This document shows, piece after piece, positions 18,455-30,255 of a stretch of 64,000 nucleotides of DNA; position 1 is the first letter of the stretch, and each line of letters starts with the position of its first letter. Both the position numbers and the translations under genes were made by a program. A model generated the notes under the pieces. The model saw only the letters and a list, made by a program, of their open reading frames with translations, was not told the DNA's origin and did not search any database. Source of the DNA: Nocardioides sp. Arc9.136 (GTDB lineage Bacteria > Actinomycetota > Actinomycetes > Propionibacteriales > Nocardioidaceae); NCBI RefSeq assembly GCF_030506255.1, contig NZ_CP113431.1:310001-374000 (forward strand), given 5' to 3'.

Positions 18455-19528
18455 ATGCCTGCACCCCAGACCCCCGCCCCGCTGCTGGTCACCAGCGACC
18501 CCGCCCTGCTCGACGACCTGCGTCGCCTCGCCGCCGCGGCCGGCATCGAGGCCGAGGTCGCGCCCGACGCGGTCGCCGCGCTGCGCCGCTGGACCGCCCC
18601 ACCGCTGGTGCTGGTCGGCGCCGACGTCGCCGGCGACCTCGCCCACCTCGGACCGGCGCGCCGCCCCGGCGTCCACCTGGTCACCTGGGGCCCGCCGGGC
18701 GAGGACGTCTACCGCGACGCGGTCGCGCTGGGCGTCGAGTCGGTGCTCGGCCTGCCCGGGGCGGAGGCCCGGCTCACCGAGGCGCTGACCGACCTCGGGG
18801 AGGGCGGACCCGCGCCGGGTCTCGTGCTCGGGACGGTCGGCGGGTCCGGGGGCGCCGGCGCCACGACGTTCGCCTGCGCCCTCGGGCAGGTGGCGGCGAG
18901 GACGGGCCGGGCCGTGGTCGTCGACGCCGACCCGCTGGGGCCGGGGGTCGACCGGGTGCTCGGGCTGGAGGGGTGCGAGGGCTTCCGCTGGGACGCCCTG
19001 TGCCGCACGAGCGGCCGGCTCGGCGGGCGTGCGCTGCGCGAGGCGCTGCCCCGGCGGGGCGGGCTGGGGGCGCTCGGCTGGTACGCCGGCTCGACCGACC
19101 CGCTGCAGCCCGGCGCCCTCCGCGAGGTCCTCTCCGCGGCCCGGCGGGGCCACGACACCGTCGTCGTCGACCTGCCGCGCTCGGTCGACGCCATGACGGG
19201 GTCGGCTGGTGACGAGGTGCTCGCGCGCTGCGACCAGGTGCTCCTCGTGGTCCGCCCCACCGTGGCCGGGGTGTCCTCGGCGGCGCGGCTGTGCGCCCGG
19301 CTGCCCGACCGGGACCGGGTGCGGCTGGTCGTCCGCGGCCGGGGCCTCGAGCCGGGCGAGGTCGCGCGCGTCTGCGGAGCCCCCGTCGTGGCCGCGATGG
19401 CCGACCAGCGCGGCCTCGCGGAGTCGATCGACCTCGGCCTGGGACCGGTGCGCTCACCGCGCTGCCACCTCGGCCGTGCCGCCGAGGCGGTCCTCGCCCG
19501 GCTGGCCGTCCTCGGGGTGGCGGCGTGA
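18455..19528 (+). CDS. ssd: Ssd/CpaE-like septum-site/secretion ATPase (helicase/secretion neighbourhood)
   Basis: A 357-residue CpaE/MinD-like protein of the actinobacterial 'helicase/secretion neighbourhood' (Mycobacterium Ssd family). An N-terminal receiver-like domain (1-120) is followed by a ParA/MinD domain with a deviant Walker A (GGSGGAGATTF, about 130-140), VVDADPLGPGVD and VVVDLPRS. The P-loop has Ala-Thr-Thr where MinD has Lys-Thr-Thr, so ATP hydrolysis may be altered. In caulobacters CpaE localises the Tad machine. A GGAACGGTTCC palindrome lies just before the ATG. Its stop overlaps the CpaF start by 4 bp. Confidence 0.88.
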   Translation: MPAPQTPAPLLVTSDPALLDDLRRLAAAAGIEAEVAPDAVAALRRWTAPPLVLVGADVAGDLAHLGPARRPGVHLVTWGPPGEDVYRDAVALGVESVLGLPGAEARLTEALTDLGEGGPAPGLVLGTVGGSGGAGATTFACALGQVAARTGRAVVVDADPLGPGVDRVLGLEGCEGFRWDALCRTSGRLGGRALREALPRRGGLGALGWYAGSTDPLQPGALREVLSAARRGHDTVVVDLPRSVDAMTGSAGDEVLARCDQVLLVVRPTVAGVSSAARLCARLPDRDRVRLVVRGRGLEPGEVARVCGAPVVAAMADQRGLAESIDLGLGPVRSPRCHLGRAAEAVLARLAVLGVAA

Positions 19529-20685
19529 GCCGGGCGGTCCTGCCCGGGGACGCTGTCCGTCCCGCGGCGGAGGGGGTGGGAGCGGACGTCGTCGACGCGG
19601 TGCGCGAGCGGCTCGCCCGGACGCCCGGCGACCTCACTCCGCACCGGGTGGCCGAGGCCCTCCGGGCCGCCGGTCGGCCCGTCGGCGACGCGACGGTGCT
19701 GGCGGTCCACGACGCGCTGCGCCGCGACGTCCTGGGCGCCGGACCGCTCGAGCCGCTGCTGCGCCTGCCCGGCGTGACCGACGTCCTCGTCAACGGCCCC
19801 GACGCGGTGTACGTCGACCGCGGCGACGGCCTGGAGCGGACCGACGTGCGCTTCCCCGACGACGCGGCGGTGCGGCGGCTGGCGCAGCGCCTGGCCGGCC
19901 TCGGCGGACGGCGCCTGGACGACGCCGTGCCCCACGTCGACCTGCGGCTGGGCGACGGCACGCGCCTGCACGCCGTGCTGGCCCCGGTGGCCCGGCCGGG
20001 CACCACCGTCTCGCTGCGCGTGCCGCACGCGCGCACCTTCACCCTCGACGAGCTCGTCGCCGCCGGGACGCTCACCAGCGAGTCGGCCCGGCTGGTGCGG
20101 GCCGTCGTCGACGCCCGGCTCGCCTTCCTGGTCACCGGCGGCACCGGGACCGGCAAGACCACCCTGCTCGCGGCGCTCCTCGCCCTGGTCGACCCCACCG
20201 AGCGCCTGGTGGTCGTCGAGGACTCCTCCGAGCTGCGACCCGACCACCCCCACGTCGTCGGGCTCGAGGCACGGCCGGCCAACCTCGAGGGGGCCGGTGA
20301 GGTCGCCCTCCGCACCCTGGTGCGCCAGGCGCTGCGGATGCGCCCGGACCGGATCGTGGTCGGCGAGGTGCGCGGGGGCGAGGTCGTCGGTTGGAGGGGT
20401 AACCACCGGGTTCGACCTGGGCTTCCGTCTGGAGGTCGCGGCGTGACGCTGTGCGACGGGATGGTCCGCCGGAGACGTGGGAGGGGCCATCGGAGGACCT
20501 GGCGGCAGGCGGGCGGGCCCGAGCCCCGGGCCGGTCCCGCGAGCGTTCGGAAGTCAGCAAAGACGGCCACTACAGCGAGCAACGGAGACAGAGATGAAGA
20601 AAGCGAAGACGAAGGATCGGTTCAGTTCTTTCGACGGCCAGGACGTCCACCACATCGGACTGGATGGAGAGGCGGGTTCGGTTAA
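19525..20685 (+). pseudogene. cpaF: Tad/CpaF secretion ATPase, 5' part, interrupted by integrative element
   Basis: TadA/CpaF-type traffic ATPase of the Tad system. The host-encoded part (19525-20389, 288 codons) has the N-terminal domain, LLRLPGVTDVLVNGP, the Walker A GGTGTGKTT near residue 208, the Asp box VVVEDSSELR and the Walker B-like PDRIVVGEVRG. The next expected element, the His box GCGTLHANS, is missing: at 20389 the sequence enters the integrated element and the frame runs on for 99 unrelated codons to 20685. The missing 3' part lies at 29902-30255. Without the His box the fragment should be inactive. Joining at the 11-bp repeat gives an intact 402-residue protein. Confidence 0.93.
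20379..20409. other. attL: attL of the integrative element
   Basis: The core CGAGGTCGTCG (20379-20389) is repeated exactly at 29901-29911. On the element side lies GGTTGGAGGGGTAACC (20389-20404), which is an imperfect inverted copy of 29879-29894; the inner 13-mer GGGTAACCACCGG (20397-20409) is perfectly inverted at 29874-29886. This is the paired half-site layout of a large serine integrase attP split between the two ends. Confidence 0.82.
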
Positions 20686-21058
20686 CGACGTGTGGTTCGA
20701 GCAGGAACTACGCGACTGGGAGCACCAGGGAGTCGACGCACGAGTCGTCTACCTGGCGCGACCGCTGTTGGAAGGCAACACGGCTCAGCAGCGGGAGGCG
20801 CACCAACTGTTAGGTCGCATCCGTGACAACTGGATGCGGCCGGGAGAGGCCATGAGCGAGGTGGCTGGCTTGCTGGGCCGCCAAGGGCTCCCGCTCGGGT
20901 CGATGCCAAAGGCGACCGACGAAGAACTGAACGAGGCCTGGGACGGGATGTCCGGCTCCGCTGGCTCCCGCCCGACTGGCGATGTCTCCTTCGGCAAGAG
21001 CGAGAAGTCGGAGCGCGACGCGCAGACAGGTGGGTGGGTCGCCTCACCGCGCGACTGA
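20594..21058 (+). CDS. Hypothetical element protein
   Basis: A 154-residue hydrophilic protein that I do not recognise. It begins with a Lys-rich stretch and has a helical middle (about 35-100, with Gln/Arg-rich helices) and a Ser/Gly-rich tail. The ATG at 20594 follows a GGAGACAGAG site. It is the first gene inside the left end, followed by its own terminator at 21068-21102, so it is a separate transcription unit from the next three genes. Base composition is moderately lower in GC than the host. Confidence 0.6.
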   Translation: MKKAKTKDRFSSFDGQDVHHIGLDGEAGSVNDVWFEQELRDWEHQGVDARVVYLARPLLEGNTAQQREAHQLLGRIRDNWMRPGEAMSEVAGLLGRQGLPLGSMPKATDEELNEAWDGMSGSAGSRPTGDVSFGKSEKSERDAQTGGWVASPRD

Positions 21059-21067
21059 GGTAGACGG

Positions 21068-21102
21068 CACACCGAGGGCCCTGGTTCAGGACCCTCGGTG
21101 TG
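21068..21102 (+). terminator. Rho-independent-like terminator
   Basis: CACACCGAGGG pairs with CCCTCGGTGTG (11 bp) around a 13-nt loop, 10 nt after the stop of the 154-residue gene. Confidence 0.75.
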
Positions 21103-21218
21103 TCCCTTCGCGACGCGCCGTAATGTCGGCGCGTCGTCCTACTCTGGATCGTCCAACGAGGCACGGTGTCAACGCAGGTGAATCCGAGAGACCGTGTCGA
21201 ACTCGCGAAGCGGGTGGC

Positions 21219-21707
21219 ATGATGACTGGAATGGCGGCCAAGCAACTCGTTGTTCAGGCCCACGGCCTGAGTGGCGACTCGCTCGATGCCGTCGACCGTC
21301 GCGCTCACACACGACCTTGGGACTACGCCGACCCGAGCATTGGTAGAAAGCCAGCCGTCCTTGGCACCGCGGGCCTGCTCAGGCTCGCAGCCGCGCTGGT
21401 ATCAACCGGCTACCGGATCGCCGAGGTCGACATCCGGGACTCCGAATTCAGCGAGTTGAGCGAAGATATCGACCAGGAGTTTTCCTCGCTCCTTCGTCGG
21501 CTCCTCAATGAGAGAGATGACCGGGCGAGCCAGCGCTTGCTGCTCGATCACGAGTTGGTACTGGTCGGAGTGACCGTCCGAATGCCGAAATCGAAAAAAG
21601 AGTTCAGTGTCAATCGCGATGGCGAACTCCGTGTCCTGCGGGAGGGAACTCTCCCTGAGGTAGTGGGGGATCTCGGGCTTGCTTTCGGCTTCCGCCGCGA
21701 GGGCTGA
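21219..21707 (+). CDS. Unknown protein, first gene of three-gene cassette
   Basis: A 162-residue soluble protein without a recognised domain. It has a mixed alpha/beta look, with an acidic helical stretch (about 65-105, rich in Glu/Asp/Ser) and a C-terminal part with Lys-rich SKKEF. Three in-frame ATGs (21219, 21222, 21231) compete; none has a strong ribosome site, so the start is uncertain. The next gene begins 2 nt after its stop. The codon use is far less GC3-biased than the host, pointing to recent transfer. Function unknown; see the cassette finding. Confidence 0.6.
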   Translation: MMTGMAAKQLVVQAHGLSGDSLDAVDRRAHTRPWDYADPSIGRKPAVLGTAGLLRLAAALVSTGYRIAEVDIRDSEFSELSEDIDQEFSSLLRRLLNERDDRASQRLLLDHELVLVGVTVRMPKSKKEFSVNRDGELRVLREGTLPEVVGDLGLAFGFRREG

Positions 21708-21709
21708 GG

Positions 21710-22357
21710 ATGCCGACTTGGTTCGGCCCCGTCGACGCTCTCCTCCGCACGGCCGCTGCGCTAGCGGCCTACTTCTCAGTCCGCTGGCTAAAGGGTGAAG
21801 TCGGATTCGACCCTCCTTTCCTGGTCGGCGAAGGAATAACCGTCCTTGCGGCCTTGCTGGTATCTGGACTAGCAAGTCAAAAGTTGTGGCGATGGCCCCG
21901 GCTCACCCTCGTGTGGGCGGTCGGAGACAAGGTAGTCGACCAGCCCACATTCGAAATCCGGGCTGGAGACGAGCGTCGGCGCCGGGTGGTCAGCCACCAA
22001 GTGTGCGCCTCCGAGCCCTCGATCTTCTCTTGGCTGGTCCTTCGTAGGTTGTCGAGGGATCACACCTATCTGGCTCTCAGGGTGGTTCCGGAGGGGGCGT
22101 TCTACCTCACCGAAGATCTCTCGTTGGAAACGGTCCAGTTCATCCCTGAGGCGTACGGCTTCAAGCACACCCTGCCGGATCTAGGTGAGTCGGGCCTGAT
22201 AGCTCTGACTCGCGTTGAGTGGGAGCCGGCTCGTCCCGGGCTTCCCGTCCGTTGCTCGGTGCGGTGGCGTCTGGAAGTTGTTGGGAAGCAAGGACGGCTG
22301 GCGCGCCGCCTGGTACACCTAGACGCCTGCGTAAAGAACGTCGAACTCGGCGACTAG
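21710..22357 (+). CDS. Unknown membrane-anchored protein, second gene of cassette
   Basis: A 215-residue protein with two hydrophobic segments near the N-terminus (about 8-25 and 42-60) and a cytosolic domain of about 150 residues rich in beta-type segments. That topology, a hairpin anchor plus a soluble domain, is common in membrane effectors of defence systems, but no family signature is visible. It starts 2 nt after the previous stop and is followed 13 nt later by the third gene, so the three form one operon. Low GC3 compared with the host. Confidence 0.6.
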   Translation: MPTWFGPVDALLRTAAALAAYFSVRWLKGEVGFDPPFLVGEGITVLAALLVSGLASQKLWRWPRLTLVWAVGDKVVDQPTFEIRAGDERRRRVVSHQVCASEPSIFSWLVLRRLSRDHTYLALRVVPEGAFYLTEDLSLETVQFIPEAYGFKHTLPDLGESGLIALTRVEWEPARPGLPVRCSVRWRLEVVGKQGRLARRLVHLDACVKNVELGD

Positions 22358-22370
22358 ATATCGGAGCGTC

Positions 22371-23363
22371 ATGGCCACCACAACGTCGGGCCAGATCTCG
22401 GTCACGCCCGTCCGCATCCACACGACTGCAACGCTAGAGGCGTTGCAGGATGCCATCGGGAAAGATCTGTATCGCGGCAAACCTGGTAGCCGCGGCTGGG
22501 GGTCGGTGAAGGACGGGACTGACCCTCTTATCGGGCGGGTCACGAGAGAGCGTCCCAGTGGCGGACGGCCAGAACCTGTCTTCGACCCCGATCCGTACCC
22601 GAAGCAGTTGCGCGCGCGCCTCTACTGGGACGAGCGGGACAAGAGGCTTGAGCAAGTCATCGGCATGCAAGGAGACTCGACGGCTGTCAGCCTGCTCCGT
22701 GCGGCGGACGTGACGTTCGCGCCGAGCAGCCAGGACGGCGAGCTCGTCGGCCTCCTCGGTGAACGGAACGACGGCCGGCTGAGGGCGCAGGTACTTCCGG
22801 CCGTGGAGGATCTAGTCCGGTCAGTCGACAAGTCCGCCACGCTCCAGCGCGACGACAACGATCTGTCATTCGGTGATGACGACTTCTTCCGCTGGGTCCT
22901 GTACCGGGCGACGCATGACCCCGAGTTGAACGATGATCTCGAAATCCTATGGGTTCGTTCGATGGCGAACCAGGACGTCTCGTTCCGGGCGACTAGCATG
23001 ACCCGCGGCGTCGAACTTGATCGTCCGGAATTGCTCGCACTCCTCGCTGGTGCGCTCAACAAGTTCGGACCAGCAAAGATCATCGTTTCCTCCGAGTCGC
23101 TGTCGCTGCGGGTGTCGCTTGAAGTTACCTCATCGGGTGCTTTCTCGATCTACCGCGGTGACACTGAGTACGATTACGACTTGAATGACGAGCCGTTGTC
23201 GGACGACGAGGAAGGATTGAAGTTGCTTCAGGATGTCGCATTCGAAATACTTCCTGAGTTGAAGCGTCTGCACAATGCTGACAGTGATTGGCGAGACACC
23301 AATCGTGATGCTTTCCGTCAGGAGGCTCGACACTTACTCCAGGGCGTACTGGACGCTTTGTAG
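22371..23363 (+). CDS. Unknown protein, third gene of cassette
   Basis: A 330-residue soluble protein with no recognised motif. The C-terminal third is strongly acidic (YDYDLNDEPLSDDEEG near residue 265-280) and ends in a helix. The middle has a long helical region (about 95-200). A strong terminator (23431-23468) follows 68 nt after the stop, closing the operon. It has no Walker, HNH, PLD or nuclease signature that I can see, so I cannot assign a function. Composition matches the two preceding genes. Confidence 0.62.
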   Translation: MATTTSGQISVTPVRIHTTATLEALQDAIGKDLYRGKPGSRGWGSVKDGTDPLIGRVTRERPSGGRPEPVFDPDPYPKQLRARLYWDERDKRLEQVIGMQGDSTAVSLLRAADVTFAPSSQDGELVGLLGERNDGRLRAQVLPAVEDLVRSVDKSATLQRDDNDLSFGDDDFFRWVLYRATHDPELNDDLEILWVRSMANQDVSFRATSMTRGVELDRPELLALLAGALNKFGPAKIIVSSESLSLRVSLEVTSSGAFSIYRGDTEYDYDLNDEPLSDDEEGLKLLQDVAFEILPELKRLHNADSDWRDTNRDAFRQEARHLLQGVLDAL

Positions 23364-23430
23364 GGGATTGCGCATCCGGCGAGGTGCGTGGTCTCCTAGT
23401 GTGGCGATTCCTGGCAGAGTCGACACTTCA

Positions 23431-23468
23431 CAAGACCCCCGACCTGGTGGCTCCGGTCGGGGGTCTTG
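23431..23468. terminator. Strong hairpin terminator
   Basis: CAAGACCCCCGACC pairs perfectly with GGTCGGGGGTCTTG (14 bp) across a 10-nt loop. It ends the three-gene cassette. Confidence 0.85.
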
Positions 23469-23737
23469 CAGCGTCCCGGGGGGCGGGGACACCACCCTCC
23501 AGTCCCAAAGTGCGGCACTTGCACGGCTGAATCCTGCCGTGCTTGACTGGGCGCAGCGGCCGCACCTAGACCGGTCGCGAAGTCAGACGGCGGATAAATG
23601 GGCAGTGCGATGCAACCGCTTCTGGACGGAGCCTGAAGACATTCAAGGCTGATTCCAGACCGCCAATTAGTCTGACCCGGACCATCCGATGACCCCGGTC
23701 GGGTGAGCGAAGGGTCAATCTCATTCGAGGTTGACCC
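23469..23737. promoter_or_regulatory. Non-coding stretch with hairpin and inverted-repeat operator
   Basis: No convincing gene. It contains a small hairpin GCACGG...CCGTGC (about 23520-23543). Just before the next start codon, AAGGGTCAA (23710-23718) and TTGACCCTT (23731-23739) form an inverted repeat with 9-bp perfect arms and a 12-bp spacer. This looks like an operator for a dimeric repressor controlling the replication genes. Confidence 0.5.
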
Positions 23738-23965
23738 TTGCACTCTGCCATCCCGGAACTCCGCGTCCACCTGATCCCGAGCGAACTCTCTCGCTCGGAC
23801 CACCAGCGCCTACTGCGCCTTCTCTTCGACTTCCCAGAGCCAGGCATGCCGACTGGCGGGGAGGCGGGTGCTCACGATGTCGCCCGCGATGCAAGCCGAG
23901 ATCACGGCGAGGGGTTCCCTTCCTTGTCTCCTCGCCGTGGTCTGGTGAACCGGAGTGCACGATGA
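23738..23965 (+). CDS. Small hypothetical protein upstream of replication genes
   Basis: A possible 75-residue protein with a TTG start directly on the right arm of the operator. The first 35 residues look like real protein with a helix (SRSDHQRLLRLLFDF), the rest is Ser/Gly/Arg-rich. Support for its being real is that its TGA overlaps the next ATG in ATGA, as for coupled genes. Against it, a hairpin CACGGCGAGG...CCTCGCCGTG (about 23901-23940) lies in its 3' end and no ribosome site is evident. Confidence 0.4.
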   Translation: MHSAIPELRVHLIPSELSRSDHQRLLRLLFDFPEPGMPTGGEAGAHDVARDASRDHGEGFPSLSPRRGLVNRSAR

Positions 23966-24267
23966 GCGACTTCGACCCCTACGACTTCGCCGAGGACGAC
24001 CCGTTCGCCGACGCGATCAGGGAGCGCACCTACACCGAGGTCCGTGACGTCGTTGGCGGTCTCGACGCAGAGTGGTTCCGCCAGCACCCGCGCTTCACCA
24101 AGCGCATCCGCAAGTACGTCCCGGGCGAGTTCGACAATGAGACCGGTGGCGTATGCGGCGACCCTGGTGACTCCGTCGTCGTCCTCGTTCGACGGGACGG
24201 CATCAAGGTGTTGTTCCTAGTCGGGACCTTCGACGGCCGCGAGACTGAGGCCGGTGGTCTCCCGTGA
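23962..24267 (+). CDS. Hypothetical acidic protein in replication operon
   Basis: A 101-residue protein: acidic N-terminus (Asp-rich, DPYDFAEDDPFAD), a helical middle with WFRQHPRFTKRIRKYVPGEF, and a beta-rich end. I do not recognise a family. It overlaps the prim-pol gene by 4 bp (GTGA), which implies coupled translation and a role linked to replication, for example as a small regulator of the primase/helicase. Confidence 0.65.
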   Translation: MSDFDPYDFAEDDPFADAIRERTYTEVRDVVGGLDAEWFRQHPRFTKRIRKYVPGEFDNETGGVCGDPGDSVVVLVRRDGIKVLFLVGTFDGRETEAGGLP

Positions 24268-26273
24268 CGGAGCCACTCACCTTCGAGTTGTCAGATGATC
24301 GCCCGACAACCCTCAACACACCTTCGCGGGGCAAGCCCGCGTCGGGAACCGGCGGGCCATCCACCGGGGCCCAACCCCGACGCGGTGCCGCGAAGGTCAG
24401 GAGTGGCCCGTCCCGCGGTCCCGGGACGGTGCAGGAGTGGGGAGAGTGGCTCGCCGGACGGGGCTGCCACGTCTTCCCGCTCACGCCAGGAGGTAAGACG
24501 CCCGCGATCAGCGCCTCCTGGACCAACGCAGCGAGCCGCGACTCGGCCAAGATCACGAAGTGGTTCGCCGCCAGCGACCGCAACATCGGCGTTCACTGCG
24601 GACGCTCTGGGCTGCTCGTGGTCGACGAGGACGAACCCGGGGCGTTCGAGCGCTTCGCGACGCAGGCCGGACACGAGGTGCCAAAGACGCTCGTCGTCCG
24701 AACCGGCAAAGGCAAGCACTTCTACTTCCGCGTGCCGGACGGCCTGCAGTTCGGCAACGGTCGGGGCCCGCTGTCGGGATGTGACGTCCGTGCAGGCAAC
24801 GGCTACGTCGTCGGCCCCGGGTCGGTCCACGAGTCCGGAGCGAAGTACGAGCCGGACGACCTCGATGCGCCCGTCGCCCCGATGCCTGATTGGCTCGTTG
24901 ACGCGCTGACCCCCGAACCAGCTCGCGTAGCCGAGCGGGTCGCAGCGCCTGCCGCCCCCGGCTACGCGGAGGTTGCTCTCCGTGATGAGGTGCGGTCGGT
25001 GCGGAATGCGCGAGAGGGCACACGCAACGAGACGTTGAACGGGGCGGCGTTCAACCTTGGGCAGTTGGCCGCCGGAGGCGCCCTGCACCCGGACGAGGTC
25101 CAGACGGCTCTGCTCGACGCGGCGCTTACGGCTGGCCTGGACGAGGCATCGTCGCGCAAGACCATCAAGTCCGGCTTCGATGCGGGTGCGGCGAGCCCCC
25201 GCTCTGGTCCCGCTGCAACACCGGTAGACGCGGGGGCGTGGGAACCGCTCGACCTCGCGCAGTGGTTCCGGTCGCCTCCCCCTCCAGCGCAGCGCTTCGG
25301 ATCTGGGCAGATGTTGTATCGCGGTGCGCTGCACTGGCTCGCGGGAGAGCCCGAGAGCGGCAAGTCGATCCTGATGCTCCAGTGGGCTCTGGAGGAGATG
25401 CGGCTTGGCAACAACGTGGTCCTGCTGGACGAGGAGGCCGGACCGCGCGACGTGTTTGCGAAGTTGCAGGCGCTTGGCGCATCGCCAGACCTGCTGGCGA
25501 GCCACCTCACCTACCTGCCCCCGGCGGGCCGGAACCTGCTCCGAGAGGCAGAGACGCTGCGGGATGTAGTTGGCGACCGGCGAGCCACCTTCGTGGGGGT
25601 CGACGGTGCGGCAGCGCACCTGGCGATCGCGGACCTAAACGAAGACTCCGCAACCGACGTAACGAAGTTCGTCGTCAGGGGCCTGTTGCCACTGGCGCAC
25701 TCCGTGAACGCGTCGGTGGTGGTGCTCGATCACATGACCAAGAGCGTCAGCAACACCCGCTACGCCCGAGGTTCTGGCGCCAAGCTGGCTAAGGCCGACG
25801 CTGCCTACTACGTCGAGGCGGTCCAGCCGTTCTCGAAGGTGAGCAGCGGCCGAGTGCGGATTACCTCCACCAAGGACCGGCTGGGGGAGTTCGGGCGCAA
25901 CGCGGTGTGGGACGTCAACGTCGACACCTCCGACAGCCGCATCCGGCTCGGGTTCTCCCACCTGACAACGGAGGAGGCGGCTTCGATCAGTGCCAGGGCA
26001 AGCCGGGGGCCGAACCCCGGCAAGGACGCCGGGATTCGGACCGATGTCGTCTCGTTCCTGCGCGCCAACCCCGGGGCATCCACGCGTGCCCTGCGGGAAG
26101 CCAAGATCGCGGGGAAGGACGCTCTGGAGCGGGTCTTGAACGAGATGAGAGAAGCAGGCGAGATCCGGGTCGACAGCGCTGGCCACGGCGGCGCACCGCG
26201 CAAGCACTTCCTGAACGAGCCGGCCATTCCGGGCATGACGCTCGACGGATCTGAAAAGGGGGTGCAGCAATGA
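24264..26273 (+). CDS. Prim-pol/AAA ATPase helicase replication protein
   Basis: A 669-residue replication initiator-type protein. After a disordered Pro/Gly-rich leader (1-55), residues about 57-215 form a bifunctional DNA primase/polymerase (PrimPol) domain with GCHVFPLTPGGKTP, IGVHCGRSGLLVVDEDE (catalytic acidic pair) and VVRTGKGKHFYF. Residues about 345-570 form a RepA/RecA-like ATPase with Walker A GEPESGKS near 361 and Walker B-like FVGVDGAAAH. A winged-helix-like segment follows (about 600-650). Such proteins replicate satellites and small integrative elements. GTG start overlapping the previous gene; the stop overlaps a downstream ATG. Confidence 0.9.
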   Translation: MTEPLTFELSDDRPTTLNTPSRGKPASGTGGPSTGAQPRRGAAKVRSGPSRGPGTVQEWGEWLAGRGCHVFPLTPGGKTPAISASWTNAASRDSAKITKWFAASDRNIGVHCGRSGLLVVDEDEPGAFERFATQAGHEVPKTLVVRTGKGKHFYFRVPDGLQFGNGRGPLSGCDVRAGNGYVVGPGSVHESGAKYEPDDLDAPVAPMPDWLVDALTPEPARVAERVAAPAAPGYAEVALRDEVRSVRNAREGTRNETLNGAAFNLGQLAAGGALHPDEVQTALLDAALTAGLDEASSRKTIKSGFDAGAASPRSGPAATPVDAGAWEPLDLAQWFRSPPPPAQRFGSGQMLYRGALHWLAGEPESGKSILMLQWALEEMRLGNNVVLLDEEAGPRDVFAKLQALGASPDLLASHLTYLPPAGRNLLREAETLRDVVGDRRATFVGVDGAAAHLAIADLNEDSATDVTKFVVRGLLPLAHSVNASVVVLDHMTKSVSNTRYARGSGAKLAKADAAYYVEAVQPFSKVSSGRVRITSTKDRLGEFGRNAVWDVNVDTSDSRIRLGFSHLTTEEAASISARASRGPNPGKDAGIRTDVVSFLRANPGASTRALREAKIAGKDALERVLNEMREAGEIRVDSAGHGGAPRKHFLNEPAIPGMTLDGSEKGVQQ

Positions 26274-26536
26274 TCACCACCATCACACGTGGCGGATGTG
26301 GCCGCCACGTGGCCGCCACATGCGCCACATACGTGGCGGGTGTGGCGGCGGCCCCGGAGGGCCGCCACGCCGCCACGTATGGCGTGTGCCCCACGCCCCA
26401 CCACGGGCGTCGCGCAACGGGGCGGGCGGGTGCAGGGGCGCACCCGGGAAAGAGCGCGCCCGCCCGCAGGGGCGCGGAGAACAAGCGCGTCACACGAAAC
26501 GCGCACGCGAGGGAGGCACTCGATGTCGTGGCTTGA
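26270..26536 (+). CDS. Doubtful small frame across the GTGGC/GCCAC repeats
   Basis: An 88-codon frame whose ATG overlaps the prim-pol stop (ATGA) and has an AGGGGG-like site. Its composition follows the dense DNA repeats beneath it (Ala/Gly/His/Arg-rich), and it overlaps the well-supported zinc-finger gene by 14 nt. It may be only a by-product of an origin-like repeat region. Confidence 0.25.
   Translation: MITTITRGGCGRHVAATCATYVAGVAAAPEGRHAATYGVCPTPHHGRRATGRAGAGAHPGKSAPARRGAENKRVTRNAHAREALDVVA
26285..26400. repeat. Cluster of GTGGC/GCCAC repeats, candidate origin or protein-binding array
   Basis: About 90 bp holds five GTGGC and five GCCAC pentamers, often as ACGTGGCGG or CCGCCACGT, with near-palindromic pairs such as GTGGCCGCCAC and GCCACATACGTGGC. 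The array begins just after the replication protein gene, the usual position for iterons or an origin in small replicons. A regulatory role in the downstream genes is an alternative. Confidence 0.5.
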
Positions 26537-26791
26537 GGAACACTGGGACGAGATCGTGGCGCTGCCGCCGGTCCGGACGCCGGTCCGAGTCTGCGCCGTG
26601 GAGGCGTGCGCCAGGCCGAAGCAGGCGCTGGGTCTGTGCACTCCGCACTACACGGCGGCGCGGCAGTTGTTCGATCCCGGCTACCGGGCGCGGTATCTGG
26701 AACAGAAGCGGCGGTCGCGTCGAGCGGCAGAGACCCGGCAGTCGGGTGGGCCGTCGAGAGGCGGTCAGTCGACCCCGACCCCGACCCTGGG

Positions 26792-26801
<10 letters not shown>
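26523..26801 (+). CDS. Small zinc-finger protein
   Basis: A 92-residue basic protein with one visible zinc-binding pattern, CAVEAC then GLCTPHY (Cys-x4-Cys ... Cys-x2-His, residues about 26-45). This is a short finger common in actinophage and mobile-element proteins. A Lys/Arg-rich helix follows (RYLEQKRRSRRAAETR) and then a disordered tail. The ATG at 26523 has GGGAGG 7 nt upstream. It probably binds nucleic acid; its exact role is unknown. Confidence 0.7.
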
Positions 26802-27424
<623 letters not shown>

Positions 27425-27622
27425 CCGCGCATCATGCCGCACGGGTCGTCGGAAAACGGCGTTTCTGCATTTCTGCGGCGGTCCGAATATCGGGTCACCC
27501 GGGGCACCCAGGCGCCCCGGACGGGTAACCAAAAAGGGGCGTCCAAAGGATAAGACGAATAATTGTGAAATGGCGATTTTGGATGATTTGATTGAGTTTT
27601 TTTCTTCCGAAGGAGCCACGTC
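27425..27622. promoter_or_regulatory. AT-rich divergent promoter region
   Basis: The most AT-rich stretch of the window (about 27545-27605, with AATAATTGTGAAATGG and GAGTTTTTTTCTTCC) lies between the divergent membrane-protein gene and the 77-residue gene. It should hold the promoter for the 27623-29929 transcription unit that includes the integrase. No single -10/-35 pair stands out. Confidence 0.45.
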
Positions 27623-27856
27623 ATGGACGCCAAGCAGATCGCTTTCAACGCCGCCTTCGACGGCCTGATCGACGCCGAGACGCAGGACGATGCGGCCGCC
27701 GCGCTCGCAGCGCTCCGCGACGCCACGGACGGCGCGGACGGCCTGCGTTTGGCGCTCTACGACGCATTCGGCGACGAGGACCACGCGTTCCTCGACGGCG
27801 TGGCCGCGGCGGCCGTCGACAGCCCCGCCACCGCCGCTGGCCTGCTTCTTTCCTGA
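27623..27856 (+). CDS. Small acidic Ala-rich protein
   Basis: A 77-residue, strongly acidic helical protein (many Ala/Asp) with an AAGGAGCCAC ribosome site upstream of ATG 27623. No family recognised; small acidic proteins next to element integrases are sometimes DNA mimics or anti-repressors, but nothing here proves that. A perfect palindrome follows 7 nt after the stop, and the same AAGGAGCCAC ribosome sequence recurs before the next gene. Confidence 0.6.
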   Translation: MDAKQIAFNAAFDGLIDAETQDDAAAALAALRDATDGADGLRLALYDAFGDEDHAFLDGVAAAAVDSPATAAGLLLS

Positions 27857-27863
27857 CAACCAC

Positions 27864-27887
27864 GGCCGGGCCCCATGGGGCCCGGCC
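27864..27887. terminator. Perfect 24-bp palindrome
   Basis: GGCCGGGCCC is followed by CATG and GGGCCCGGCC, a perfect self-complementary 24-mer between the 77-residue gene and the 137-residue gene. It would act as a terminator or attenuator. Confidence 0.65.
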
Positions 27888-27902
27888 AGCAAGGAGCCAC
27901 CC

Positions 27903-28316
27903 ATGACACCCCCCAGTTCCGACGCTTCTGAGCGCTCGCCGCGCCGGGAATGGCCCGCGAACGGCGTTCCGGACCGGGACCCTTATTGGCTTGACAGCGA
28001 GTCAAGAACAACGGTCGACTTGCGTCCCGGCAATTGCACATGTGGTTGCGGGAAGAAAGTTCCTGGCCATTTCGCACAGGGTCACAACCAGCGCCTCCGA
28101 GGACAACTGGCGCGGGCGAATATCAGGGGCCAACGTGTAGAGGTATTGCAGCCAGTCACAGGCGCAATTCTCATGGCCGCCCCGGAAGCGGCGAAGTTGC
28201 TCGGCGAGAAGTGGCTGGAATGGGTCGCCCCCGAGGTGCTGCTGGTCGAGCGCTCGGACGACTGGGCGGCGCATGTCGCCAACCTCGCCGCAGACATGTT
28301 CGAGCGTGGCGAGTGA
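27903..28316 (+). CDS. Zinc-motif protein upstream of integrase
   Basis: A 137-residue protein with a compact Cys/His cluster, CTCGCGKKVPGHFAQGH (residues about 45-61), that looks like a treble-clef zinc knuckle often seen in actinophage proteins. A helical C-terminal domain follows (about 85-137). It has an AAGGAGCCAC ribosome site. The stop TGA shares one base with the integrase ATG (TGATG), so the two are coupled; a role as recombination directionality factor is possible but untested. Confidence 0.7.
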   Translation: MTPPSSDASERSPRREWPANGVPDRDPYWLDSESRTTVDLRPGNCTCGCGKKVPGHFAQGHNQRLRGQLARANIRGQRVEVLQPVTGAILMAAPEAAKLLGEKWLEWVAPEVLLVERSDDWAAHVANLAADMFERGE

Positions 28317-29929
28317 TGCGCGCAGCGATCTACTGCCGGGTCTCGACCGCGGACCAGGTCGACGGCACCAGCCTGGGGGAGCAGGAGCGGCGCTGCAAGC
28401 GGTACGTCGAGTTGAAGGACTGGACGCTCGCGGCGGCCCCGTTCGTGGACCAGGGCATCAGCGGGACCAAGGCAGACCGCCCCGCGTGGCGAGCCATGCT
28501 GCGGGCCGCCGAAGCGGGCGAGATCGACGTGGTCGTGGTGACGAAACTCGACCGGTTCTCCCGTTCGGCGAGCCACGCGCTCACCGAGATCGACGCGCTG
28601 ACGTCATTGGGCGTGCAGTTCGTTTCCCTGAGTGAGTCCATCGACCTCACCAACCCGGCGGGCAAGTTGCAACTGACGGTGCTGGCGGGGGTGGCGGAAT
28701 TCGAGCGAGCCACCATCGCGCAACGCGGCGTCGACGGGCAGCGGGCAAAGGCAGCGGCTGGTCGGTGGCCGGGTGGCGAAGCCCCCTACGGCTACCAGCG
28801 TGAGGGCCGGGGGCGCGATGTTCGGATCGTCCCGAACCCGAACGAGCGCGAGGTGGTCAGGGTCGCCACTGAGGCCATCCTCGATAACGGCAGGACGACC
28901 GGTGACGCAGCGGCGCTGCTCAACAGCCTGGGCTTCCGGGGTCGCCGAGGCTCCGCGTGGAGTCACCAGATGGTCCACCGGATGTTGGAGAGCGAGGCGC
29001 TGGTTGGCGTCGTCTACTGGGGCAAGGCCAACCGTCGCTACGGGCACAACACGAAGTTGGGGGCGGACGGCAAACCCAAGTACGGCGAACCGATCCGCAT
29101 CGACCTTGAGGATCCGCCGATGGATCGCGAGAGGTGGCTCGCCTTGCAGCGCGTCCTCAAGGGTCGGGGGTATGGCGTGAAGGCTGACGCCAAGCCGTAC
29201 CCGAACTCCGGTTCAGTGACTGACTGCGGCGGACGCCTCGGCGGTGTCTGGCGGCGCGACCGCGACCTTCGGCAGTACCGGTGCAACCGCAGCAAGTGGA
29301 TCGCCGGAAACCCGCCGCTGTGCGATTGCGCTCGGATCAATGCCGACTGGCTGGACGGCCGGGTGTGGCAGGCAGTCACCGAAGTCCTGTCTGACCCGGA
29401 CCGTCTGCTGACGCTGGCCGCTGACTACATCGGCTTGCGCCGAGAGGCGGAGAGGCCGGAAGCCGACACGATCACTCAAGTGCAGCACCGCATCGACAAG
29501 TTGGAGCGCTCCCGGGTTGAGAAGGTTGCGGAGTACCTCCGGGCGGGAGTTGCTGCGGATGTGGTCGCTGAGGCGGCTTTGCGAATCGACGGAGAGATTG
29601 CGGCGGCTCGTGCCTACCTGGCTCAACTGGAGGCGTACAGGGCTGACGCACAGGCGGAGCAGAGCCGAGCATCTGCACTCGCTGAGTTGGCTCGACGAGC
29701 GGCTGAGCGGCTCCCGCTGATGGATCTTCACGAGCAGGGCGAGGTGCTGAGCCTGCTGCGCATCAATGTCGCTGTCCTCGACGGGAATTCCAACCCGTCG
29801 TTACGAATCGAGGGTGTGGTGCCGGGCGGCGGCGGGCTGTTCGCCTCGCCCGGCGTTGGCGGACCGACCGGGACCGGTGGTTACCCAGTTGACCAGGGGC
29901 CGAGGTCGTCGAGCTCCTGGCGGCGATGA
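28316..29929 (+). CDS. int: Large serine recombinase (integrase), 3' end crosses attR
   Basis: A 537-residue large serine integrase. The resolvase-type catalytic domain (about 1-150) has the nucleophile S10 in YCRVSTADQ and the arginine-rich KLDRFSRS motif. A Recombinase domain (about 165-275) follows, then a zinc-ribbon region with VTDCGG...YRCNRS...LCDC (about 300-345) and a coiled coil (about 375-455). It integrates and, with a directionality factor, excises the element. The stop lies beyond the attR core, so the final five residues (SSWRR) are encoded by host cpaF DNA. In the circular element the same frame would instead end in VGGVTTGFDLGFRLEVAA, read from 20390-20443. Confidence 0.95.
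29874..29911. other. attR: attR of the integrative element
   Basis: Core CGAGGTCGTCG at 29901-29911, identical to attL. The element-side arm GGTTACCCAGTTGACC (29879-29894) is an imperfect inverted partner of the attL arm. The site lies inside the integrase coding sequence. The base just before the core differs (GGC codon on the left, GCC on the right), as expected when attB and attP match only over the crossover region. Confidence 0.82.
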
Positions 29930-30255
29930 ACACCGGTCACGACGGCGGCTGCGGCACGCTGCACGCCAACTCCGCCGTCGACGTCGCCGCGCGGGTCGAG
30001 GCGCTCGCGCTCGCCGGCGGGCTCGACCGGGCCGCCGCGCACAGCCAGCTGGCCTCCGCCCTCGACGTGGTGCTGCACCTGGTCCGGCCGAGGGACGGCC
30101 GGCGCCGGCTGGCCCAGGTCGCGGTCACGCGGCGGCTGGCCGACGGCACGGTCGACCTGGTGCCGGCGGTCGAGGTCACCTCCGAGGGAGCGGTGCGGGC
30201 GGGTCCCGGCGCCGACCGGCTCGAGGACCTGCTCGACCGCCGGAGCGGGTCGTGA
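29902..30255 (+). pseudogene. cpaF: CpaF secretion ATPase, 3' part displaced by element
   Basis: Continuation of the CpaF frame: GAG-GTC-GTC from the core runs into [21 protein letters not shown], the missing His-box region, then the C-terminal helices that end at 30255. Codon phase matches the 5' part exactly when the 11-bp repeats are superimposed. An internal ATG at 29926 could start a 109-residue fragment, but there is no ribosome site. The stop overlaps the TadB start by 4 bp, so translational coupling of the downstream genes depends on this fragment being read. Confidence 0.93.

Follow-up and report, generated by a model that had tools for sequence, protein, structure and literature searches.

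The window analysed here, a 64,000-nucleotide stretch of Nocardioides sp. Arc9.136, carries an integrated element of 9522 bp (20390–29911, no strand assigned), which is inserted into the host gene for the Tad pilus ATPase, cpaF/tadA, and bounded by two copies of an 11-bp core, CGAGGTCGTCG. The attL core (20379–20389, plus strand) lies within cpaF; the identical attR core (29901–29911, plus strand) lies within the frame of the element's integrase. The 5' part of cpaF (19525–20389, plus strand) matches positions 2–266 of the 340 in TIGR03819 at 388 bits, and the 3' part, an ORF taken from its first ATG (29926–30255, plus strand), matches positions 274–340 of 340. The two flanks are thus consecutive stretches of one model, that of the TadA-family ATPase; cpaF reads across the site, and the empty target is coding. 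Inside the element, a plus-strand gene at 24264–26273 encodes a Prim-Pol/AAA replication-type protein (Pfam Prim-Pol, 124 bits; AAA_25, 40.5 bits; PHROGs DNA primase families) and is followed by a possible, weakly matched HNH endonuclease (26289–26801, plus strand; PHROGs phrog_5351, E 3e-5). Apart from the Prim-Pol/AAA gene, most genes of the element have no recognisable family, e.g., a 370-aa minus-strand frame (26792–27904) that matches nothing in Pfam or PHROGs and has a run of NG repeats close to its C-terminus. PHROGs revealed no virion gene among the 10 element frames scanned, and PADLOC returned no match for seven element proteins.

At the right end, a plus-strand gene (28316–29929) encodes a large serine integrase (LSR), 537 aa in its integrated form, as identified from its translation and Pfam matches. 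A Resolvase domain (PF00239, 141.2 bits) precedes a Recombinase domain (PF07508, 42.9 bits), both above cut-off; a Zn_ribbon_recom match of 23.6 bits falls below its cut-off of 25.3, and Cys304, Cys323 and Cys336 are nearly invariant. Pfam matches are limited to serine-recombinase models, and the protein scores 327 bits against the PHROG 95 integrase family. The gene is present as a single copy in the genome, one 4.41-Mb contig, where the sole further match stands at 27%. Its last five codons (29912–29926) and stop come from the host gene cpaF, in a frame other than that of cpaF itself. The integrase stop TGA (29927–29929) overlaps the ATG (29926) of the cpaF 3' fragment in an ATGA, an arrangement that could link transcription of the integrase to the tad genes downstream.

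The original end of the integrase gene appears to be stranded at the other end of the element, as 18 codons, VGGVTTGFDLGFRLEVAA, and a stop (20390–20446, plus strand) that fall in frame once the cores are joined and that encode a conserved motif. Joining the cores in silico keeps the frame and yields DQGPRSS-VGGVTTGFDLGFRLEVAA, a protein of 550 aa with its stop at 20444–20446. The initial annotation had placed attP inside the integrase gene and had given 537 residues for the integrated and 550 for the circular form, with the frame kept; the placement and every figure are correct. The attP reconstructed from the window sequence has inverted arms, 48 bp from arm to arm: the left arm, GGTTACCC (29879–29886, plus strand), has similar counterparts in three related elements (G506, G257 and G915), and the right arm, GGGTAACC (20397–20404, plus strand), is the left one inverted. 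The exact crossover dinucleotide of the cpaF elements is GA or GT within GA[AG]GT, with G506, G915 and G458 in disagreement, and the frame is unaffected either way.

The cut follows residue 532 of 550, downstream of the LSR domain matches. Because the Resolvase, Recombinase and zinc-ribbon matches and a modelled coiled-coil all precede it, the short protein made from the integrated gene should, by its sequence, still function as an integrase. The structural model of this form is poor (mean pLDDT 63.6, below 50 in the zinc-ribbon stretch 285–348 and in 479–496). The long helix pair, 383–409/414–468, belongs to this low-confidence prediction, as do the strands at 483–487 and 496–500, and beyond residue 500, where pLDDT is 24–28, there is no strand. 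We read residues 496–500 of the model as the usual last strand of an LSR.

Close relatives of the window integrase are rare. At E <= 1e-35, the class yielded matches in 13 of 393 genomes (several of them LSRs outside the window integrase subfamily), the order in 2 of 391 and the genus in 4 of 215, each figure counting the genome of the window itself. At the same threshold, 4 of 35 genomes in the G506 family and 1 of 5 in the G257 family match, their centre genomes included; stricter profile searches gave matches in 11/249, 1/5, 2/296 and 1/1 genomes. In a family sample, 94 of 197 genomes hold some match at E 0.001, none of them close except the window's own. A peptide-pattern search for close relatives confirmed none of 14 candidates in genome contigs and none of four in viral contigs. 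The matches listed from phage and plasmid collections are distant LSRs only, all below 60% identity and none covering 80% of the query in one place, and two wider viral scans, judged on the best 80 of 535 and the best 80 of 145 confirmed loci, gave identities of 24–46% (best segment), with no subfamily member noticed.

The subfamily as studied has nine members, in which identity to the window integrase is 57% for G821, 51% for G780, 44% for G257, 42% for G506 (Parafrankia sp. EUN1f), 39% for G915 (a contig of Actinophytocola xinjiangensis), 37% for G207, 35% for G289 and 34% for G894; to these were added two near copies of G506, G520 (Frankia sp. EI5c) and G458 (Parafrankia colletiae). In a midpoint-rooted tree, the seven tail-bearing integrases, G207 and G289 form one nine-row group with support of 94/94 against a star threshold of 95; the tail-bearing rows do not make up a clean clade, the label taking three changes with G207 and G289 counted as tailless. 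For G207, no attL turned up in the 19.9 kb searched to the end of the contig, and on the G289 contig there was no cpaF match and no att site was identified. Counts out of seven below therefore refer to the window element and six relatives (34–57% identical), with G207 and G289 dropped beforehand and the near copies G458 and G520 left out.

Elements of the subfamily with a located site all lie in Tad pilus genes except one degraded copy, L212 (8600–13760) of Parafrankia colletiae, a 5-kb remnant whose integrase frame is broken and whose site has no match to cpaF. Five of the seven elements are inserted in cpaF, with the integrase sense to the gene in the window, G506 and G915 and antisense in G257 and G894. 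The other two, G780 and G821, lie antisense in a gene that adjoins an apparently intact cpaF paralogue and that we call T2SSF/tadB-like, its 5' part having a weak T2SSF match (E 5e-4, below cut-off). This choice of target, a T2SSF (tadB-like) gene beside an apparently intact cpaF paralogue, is that of two relatives in the window's genus (L208/L209 and L215/L216). The cpaF codons hit are the same (GE[VT]RG.E) for related integrases at L205, L210/L200, L217 and L199/L238, some inserted in one orientation and some in the other; the target is thus usable either way round.

The frame is kept on joining in all seven elements for which both ends were found. The restored circular-form tails are 17–22 aa long and end in F[RHA][LVI][EL]...Ala in seven of seven: VGGVTTGFDLGFRLEVAA in the window, APGRTPFDLRFRVETAA in G780, TAVCAPADLRFRIEVAA in G821, YPDGGVTSPIPFRVELPA in G506, GATSDGSPTVPNVPFRLLTVA in G915, ISGVTTVLALPFAIEARGRA in G257 and QIHAQRSTGVSAFPFHVERVVA in G894; the lengths of the relatives' joined integrases rest on assumed start codons. 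A ninth tail, KYPDGGVTSPIPFRVELPA, is carried by the attL of G458, whose integrase frame is broken. In the seven measured elements, the stranded tail codons lie ~7.5–22 kb from the integrase.

In Frankia sp. EI5c, the junction that was joined in silico for the other elements is found in a natural sequence. On contig NZ_LRTK01000093.1, the G520 integrase is contiguous with the tail YPDGGVTSPIPFRVELPA and its stop, which are followed by ~160 bp resembling the left-end DNA of the G506 element, while an intact cpaF is located on another contig. The junction contig is 3.5 kb long, has seven N, begins inside the integrase gene and, past the ~160-bp stretch, has no match to the G506 element. The junction matches that expected of a circular (attP) form and looks like an unintegrated copy; if so, circles do arise, not necessarily through the element's own enzyme. 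Beside the junction, at L214 (819–3551), lies a repeat-rich ORF of more than 900 aa that is unmatched in the G506 element and could be cargo or an assembly join. An AlphaFold model of the natural-junction piece, built from a 5-row alignment with two X residues in the protein, places a final strand at IPFRVEL (pLDDT of the block 51–55) after a stretch, 202–233, below 50, and gives only a hint that the tail forms a strand; a fold search with this model returned coiled-coil matches, phiC31 integrase among them, and was uninformative on the tail.

Conservation of the tail was assessed with stop-anchored and gapped tests, a motif-anchored permutation test having been set aside as biased. When the last eight residues are aligned from the stop, the mean BLOSUM62 score per pair and column is 0.98. 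Shuffled tails give -0.85, with 0 of 20,000 scoring as high; reading the tails in the other two frames gives 0.23 and -0.08, and the eight residues immediately before the join give -0.17. In a gapped leave-one-out comparison, each of the seven tails is closer to the other six than is any control, a stop-ended 12-mer from its own element: none of 219 controls in the window, 477 in G780, 342 in G821, 382 in G506, 210 in G257, 234 in G894 and 78 in G915, the last drawn from ~2 kb of its 22-kb element, reaches the tail score. The nearest approach is in G506, where one chance 12-mer scores 22.2 to the tail's 22.5. An ungapped version singles out the tail in five of the seven elements only, with 29 of 229 controls as good as the tail in G257 and 70 of 254 in G894. 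The gapped tests, together with the seven-of-seven count, the window's element included, indicate that the in-frame arrangement is more than chance.

The pattern of change points the same way. The FRxE part of the tail lies past the attP arms, beyond the 24-bp half-site. G780 and G821, which have a different target gene and different attP DNA, nevertheless keep DLRFR[IV]E[VT]AA. Over the 18 tail codons, G506 and G520 differ, as counted by eye, by two synonymous and no nonsynonymous changes. Between the third codon upstream of the F and the stop, differences at codon positions 1, 2 and 3 number 2, 0 and 5 between G821 and the window, 2, 1 and 5 between G821 and G780, and 3, 1 and 3 between the window and G780. 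A motif that extends beyond the attP arms, persists across a change of target and varies synonymously argues that the circular-form tail is conserved as protein in the tail-bearing members of the subfamily, and hence that the difference between the long and short forms is probably of consequence.

The tails acquired upon integration are of another kind. They are host-derived, 4 to 35 aa long, and vary with target and orientation: SSWRR in the window, and elsewhere SSIS, GLRSPQRPQHRS, RPPAPRPPPAGRAASAAPA and others. Only G780 and G821, which share a target gene, also share such a tail, a 35-residue host stretch in G780 that is near-identical in G821. By these sequences, the host-encoded tails are not conserved. 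The initial annotation had described integration as swapping one C-terminus for another and had proposed a comparison of both tails among homologues, with conservation of neither as the outcome that would count against it. That outcome did not occur, since the circular tail is conserved and integration does replace it; the idea of two functional tails finds no support, and integration is better described as removing a conserved tail than as exchanging two functional ones.

These observations suggest a mechanism in which one LSR has two genetic forms, the tail being a regulatory strand of the circular state that favours the integrative synapse and is removed on integration, a reading to which we give close to an even chance. 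In the circle, the integrase frame would run through attP into a short tail with the strand-like motif F[RHA][LVI][EL]...A. Recombination between attP and a target in the Tad locus would place the crossover ~20 codons before the end of the integrase gene and sever it, leaving the tail codons stranded at attL and the integrase ending in a few arbitrary host-encoded residues; excision would rebuild the long gene. The tail would pack on the zinc-ribbon/coiled-coil end and promote the integrative synapse; integration would thereby remove the integration-promoting form, and the short form, with all ordinary LSR domains kept, would excise together with a directionality factor. The two forms, the in-frame joining in seven of seven elements, the single natural attP junction, the protein-level conservation of the tail, the lack of conservation among host tails and the LSR domains upstream of the cut are read from the sequences; we infer the production of both forms, an effect of the tail on activity, and the direction of that effect.

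Work on other LSRs bears on the proposed role of the tail in both directions. Directionality is set at the zinc-ribbon/coiled-coil end, where the recombination directionality factor (RDF) of phiC31 binds, within the C-terminal 200 aa of the integrase, according to one account (PMC5814800), and in LI integrase the extreme C-terminus is described as lying near the coiled-coil (PMC5737554). The same source reports that the 21 residues past the last structural strand of phiC31 integrase are non-essential (PMC5737554), which weakens the case for a regulatory tail. More tentatively, the subfamily may have a built-in sensor of state, encoded in the DNA: a conserved C-terminal strand would be deleted by the reaction that the enzyme carries out and restored when that reaction is reversed. 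The protein made would then always indicate whether the element is integrated or excised, and would set direction together with the RDF or take over part of the RDF's job.

The best rival, in our judgement unlikely, takes the tail to be an ssrA-like C-terminal degradation tag, which would make the integrase produced from the circle short-lived and the integrated form stable. It owes this rank to the integration-dependent immunity of mycobacteriophages, which handles its repressor in this way, attP lying in the repressor coding sequence and a C-terminal piece, often Ala-ended, being removed on integration (PMC9262239, PMC9934374, PMC8092301), and to the fact that the tails, too, end in Ala: this is so in seven of seven, compared with 20 of 167 stop triplets (12%) in the window element and 133 of 1293 (10%) in the whole window on both strands. 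Two terminal Ala are, however, present in only three of the seven (E[VT]AA), the others ending in LPA, TVA, GRA and VVA; the best-conserved part, F-x-hydrophobic-E, begins 7–9 residues from the end and would be needless for a simple tag; and the integrated form of G257 by chance ends in PAVAA, taken from host DNA. The two systems share the loss of a C-terminal piece on integration and the resulting state-dependent protein forms; they differ in that a tyrosine integrase there cuts a repressor gene, whereas here a serine integrase cuts its own gene, with attP in int, and the tail of the window type bears a further conserved motif.

Alternatively, the tail could be needed for full activity, so that integration cripples the enzyme in a one-way ratchet and escape requires full-length integrase from another copy. 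The loss of a conserved tail upon integration in all seven elements would fit, and there is a precedent in the suicidal integrases of archaeal SSV-type viruses, in which attP lies in the integrase gene, integration splits the gene and excision restores it (PMC8371274). Like these, the present elements have attP in their own integrase gene, which is cut by integration and mended by excision. The archaeal enzymes, however, are tyrosine recombinases that are left in two inactive parts, the catalytic domain being separated from the rest, whereas here only ~20 codons are lost and the catalytic and DNA-binding domains stay together; no domain match, from Resolvase through Recombinase to zinc ribbon, is parted from the others or from the modelled coiled-coil. 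The unintegrated-looking G520 copy also implies that circles arise, by whichever enzyme, and a ratchet is improbable.

It is less probable still that attP came by chance to lie at the int 3' end and that the tail is conserved merely as attP DNA or by chance, for although the GVT seen in the window, G257 and G506 tails, three of seven, is the attP DNA arm GGGTNACC translated in frame and a second LSR group (L246–L255) likewise runs into its target, FRxE lies outside the half-site and is kept in G780 and G821 with unrelated attP DNA, and the frame, synonymous-change and control tests all favour protein.

The second group, distant from the window integrase and found in the G915 family, has integrases that end in VR[TA]MT..V and continue into host-dependent tails, e.g., ELTGFEPVTP or GRPGLEPGTYGL. 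A predicted tRNA or tmRNA gene overlaps the end of the integrase at five of the ten loci (L246, L249, L251, L253 and L254), so that here, too, the target seems to rewrite the C-terminus, and tRNA and tmRNA genes seem to be the targets. An attL, sought within ~18 kb upstream in seven of the ten, was not found; the search left out two loci whose integrase end was missed by the pattern and one whose contig was too short.

Compared with the LSRs of phiC31, Bxb1, A118/LI and SPbeta, the window integrase has the same domain order, profile matches to solved LSRs (among them entries for Bxb1 and SPbeta) and an arm-symmetric attP of ~50 bp. It differs in an extra C-terminal extension past the presumed usual last strand, with attP embedded in the linker of this extension. 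The closest parallel in the position of attP is the Myxococcus phage Mx8, where attP is within int and integration makes a gene with a different 3' end, whose product is described as altered in specificity, not inactivated (PMC6070905); in the seven reconstructed elements, too, attP lies in the int coding sequence and integration creates a recombinant 3' end. Mx8, however, is a phage with a tyrosine-type Int (Pfam Phage_int_M 27.7 bits, cut-off 27; Phage_integrase 16.9 bits, below cut-off), whereas the window integrase is of the serine type and belongs to a small element without a virion gene in 10 frames, its tail is conserved across at least seven elements, and the targets are protein genes. 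The Islander work notes that the integrases of Mx8 and SSV extend across attP (PMC4383910), and a review of the archaeal systems presents self-disrupting recombinases as exclusive to archaea (PMC8371274). In the open literature searched, no serine integrase with such a self-altering arrangement was found.

One practical consequence is that a pipeline working from integrated copies would take the integrase ORF in a truncated form and clone it with a host-derived tail. What makes a serine integrase integrate rather than excise is central to both phage biology and genome-engineering tools; the usual explanation invokes the RDF and the coiled-coil. In the present case, matched long and short versions of one enzyme, set apart only by a small conserved tail, appear to occur naturally, and with them the role of the extreme C-terminus is directly testable. 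The arrangement would extend the self-alteration of integrases, known among the tyrosine enzymes of Mx8 and archaeal viruses, to the serine integrases.
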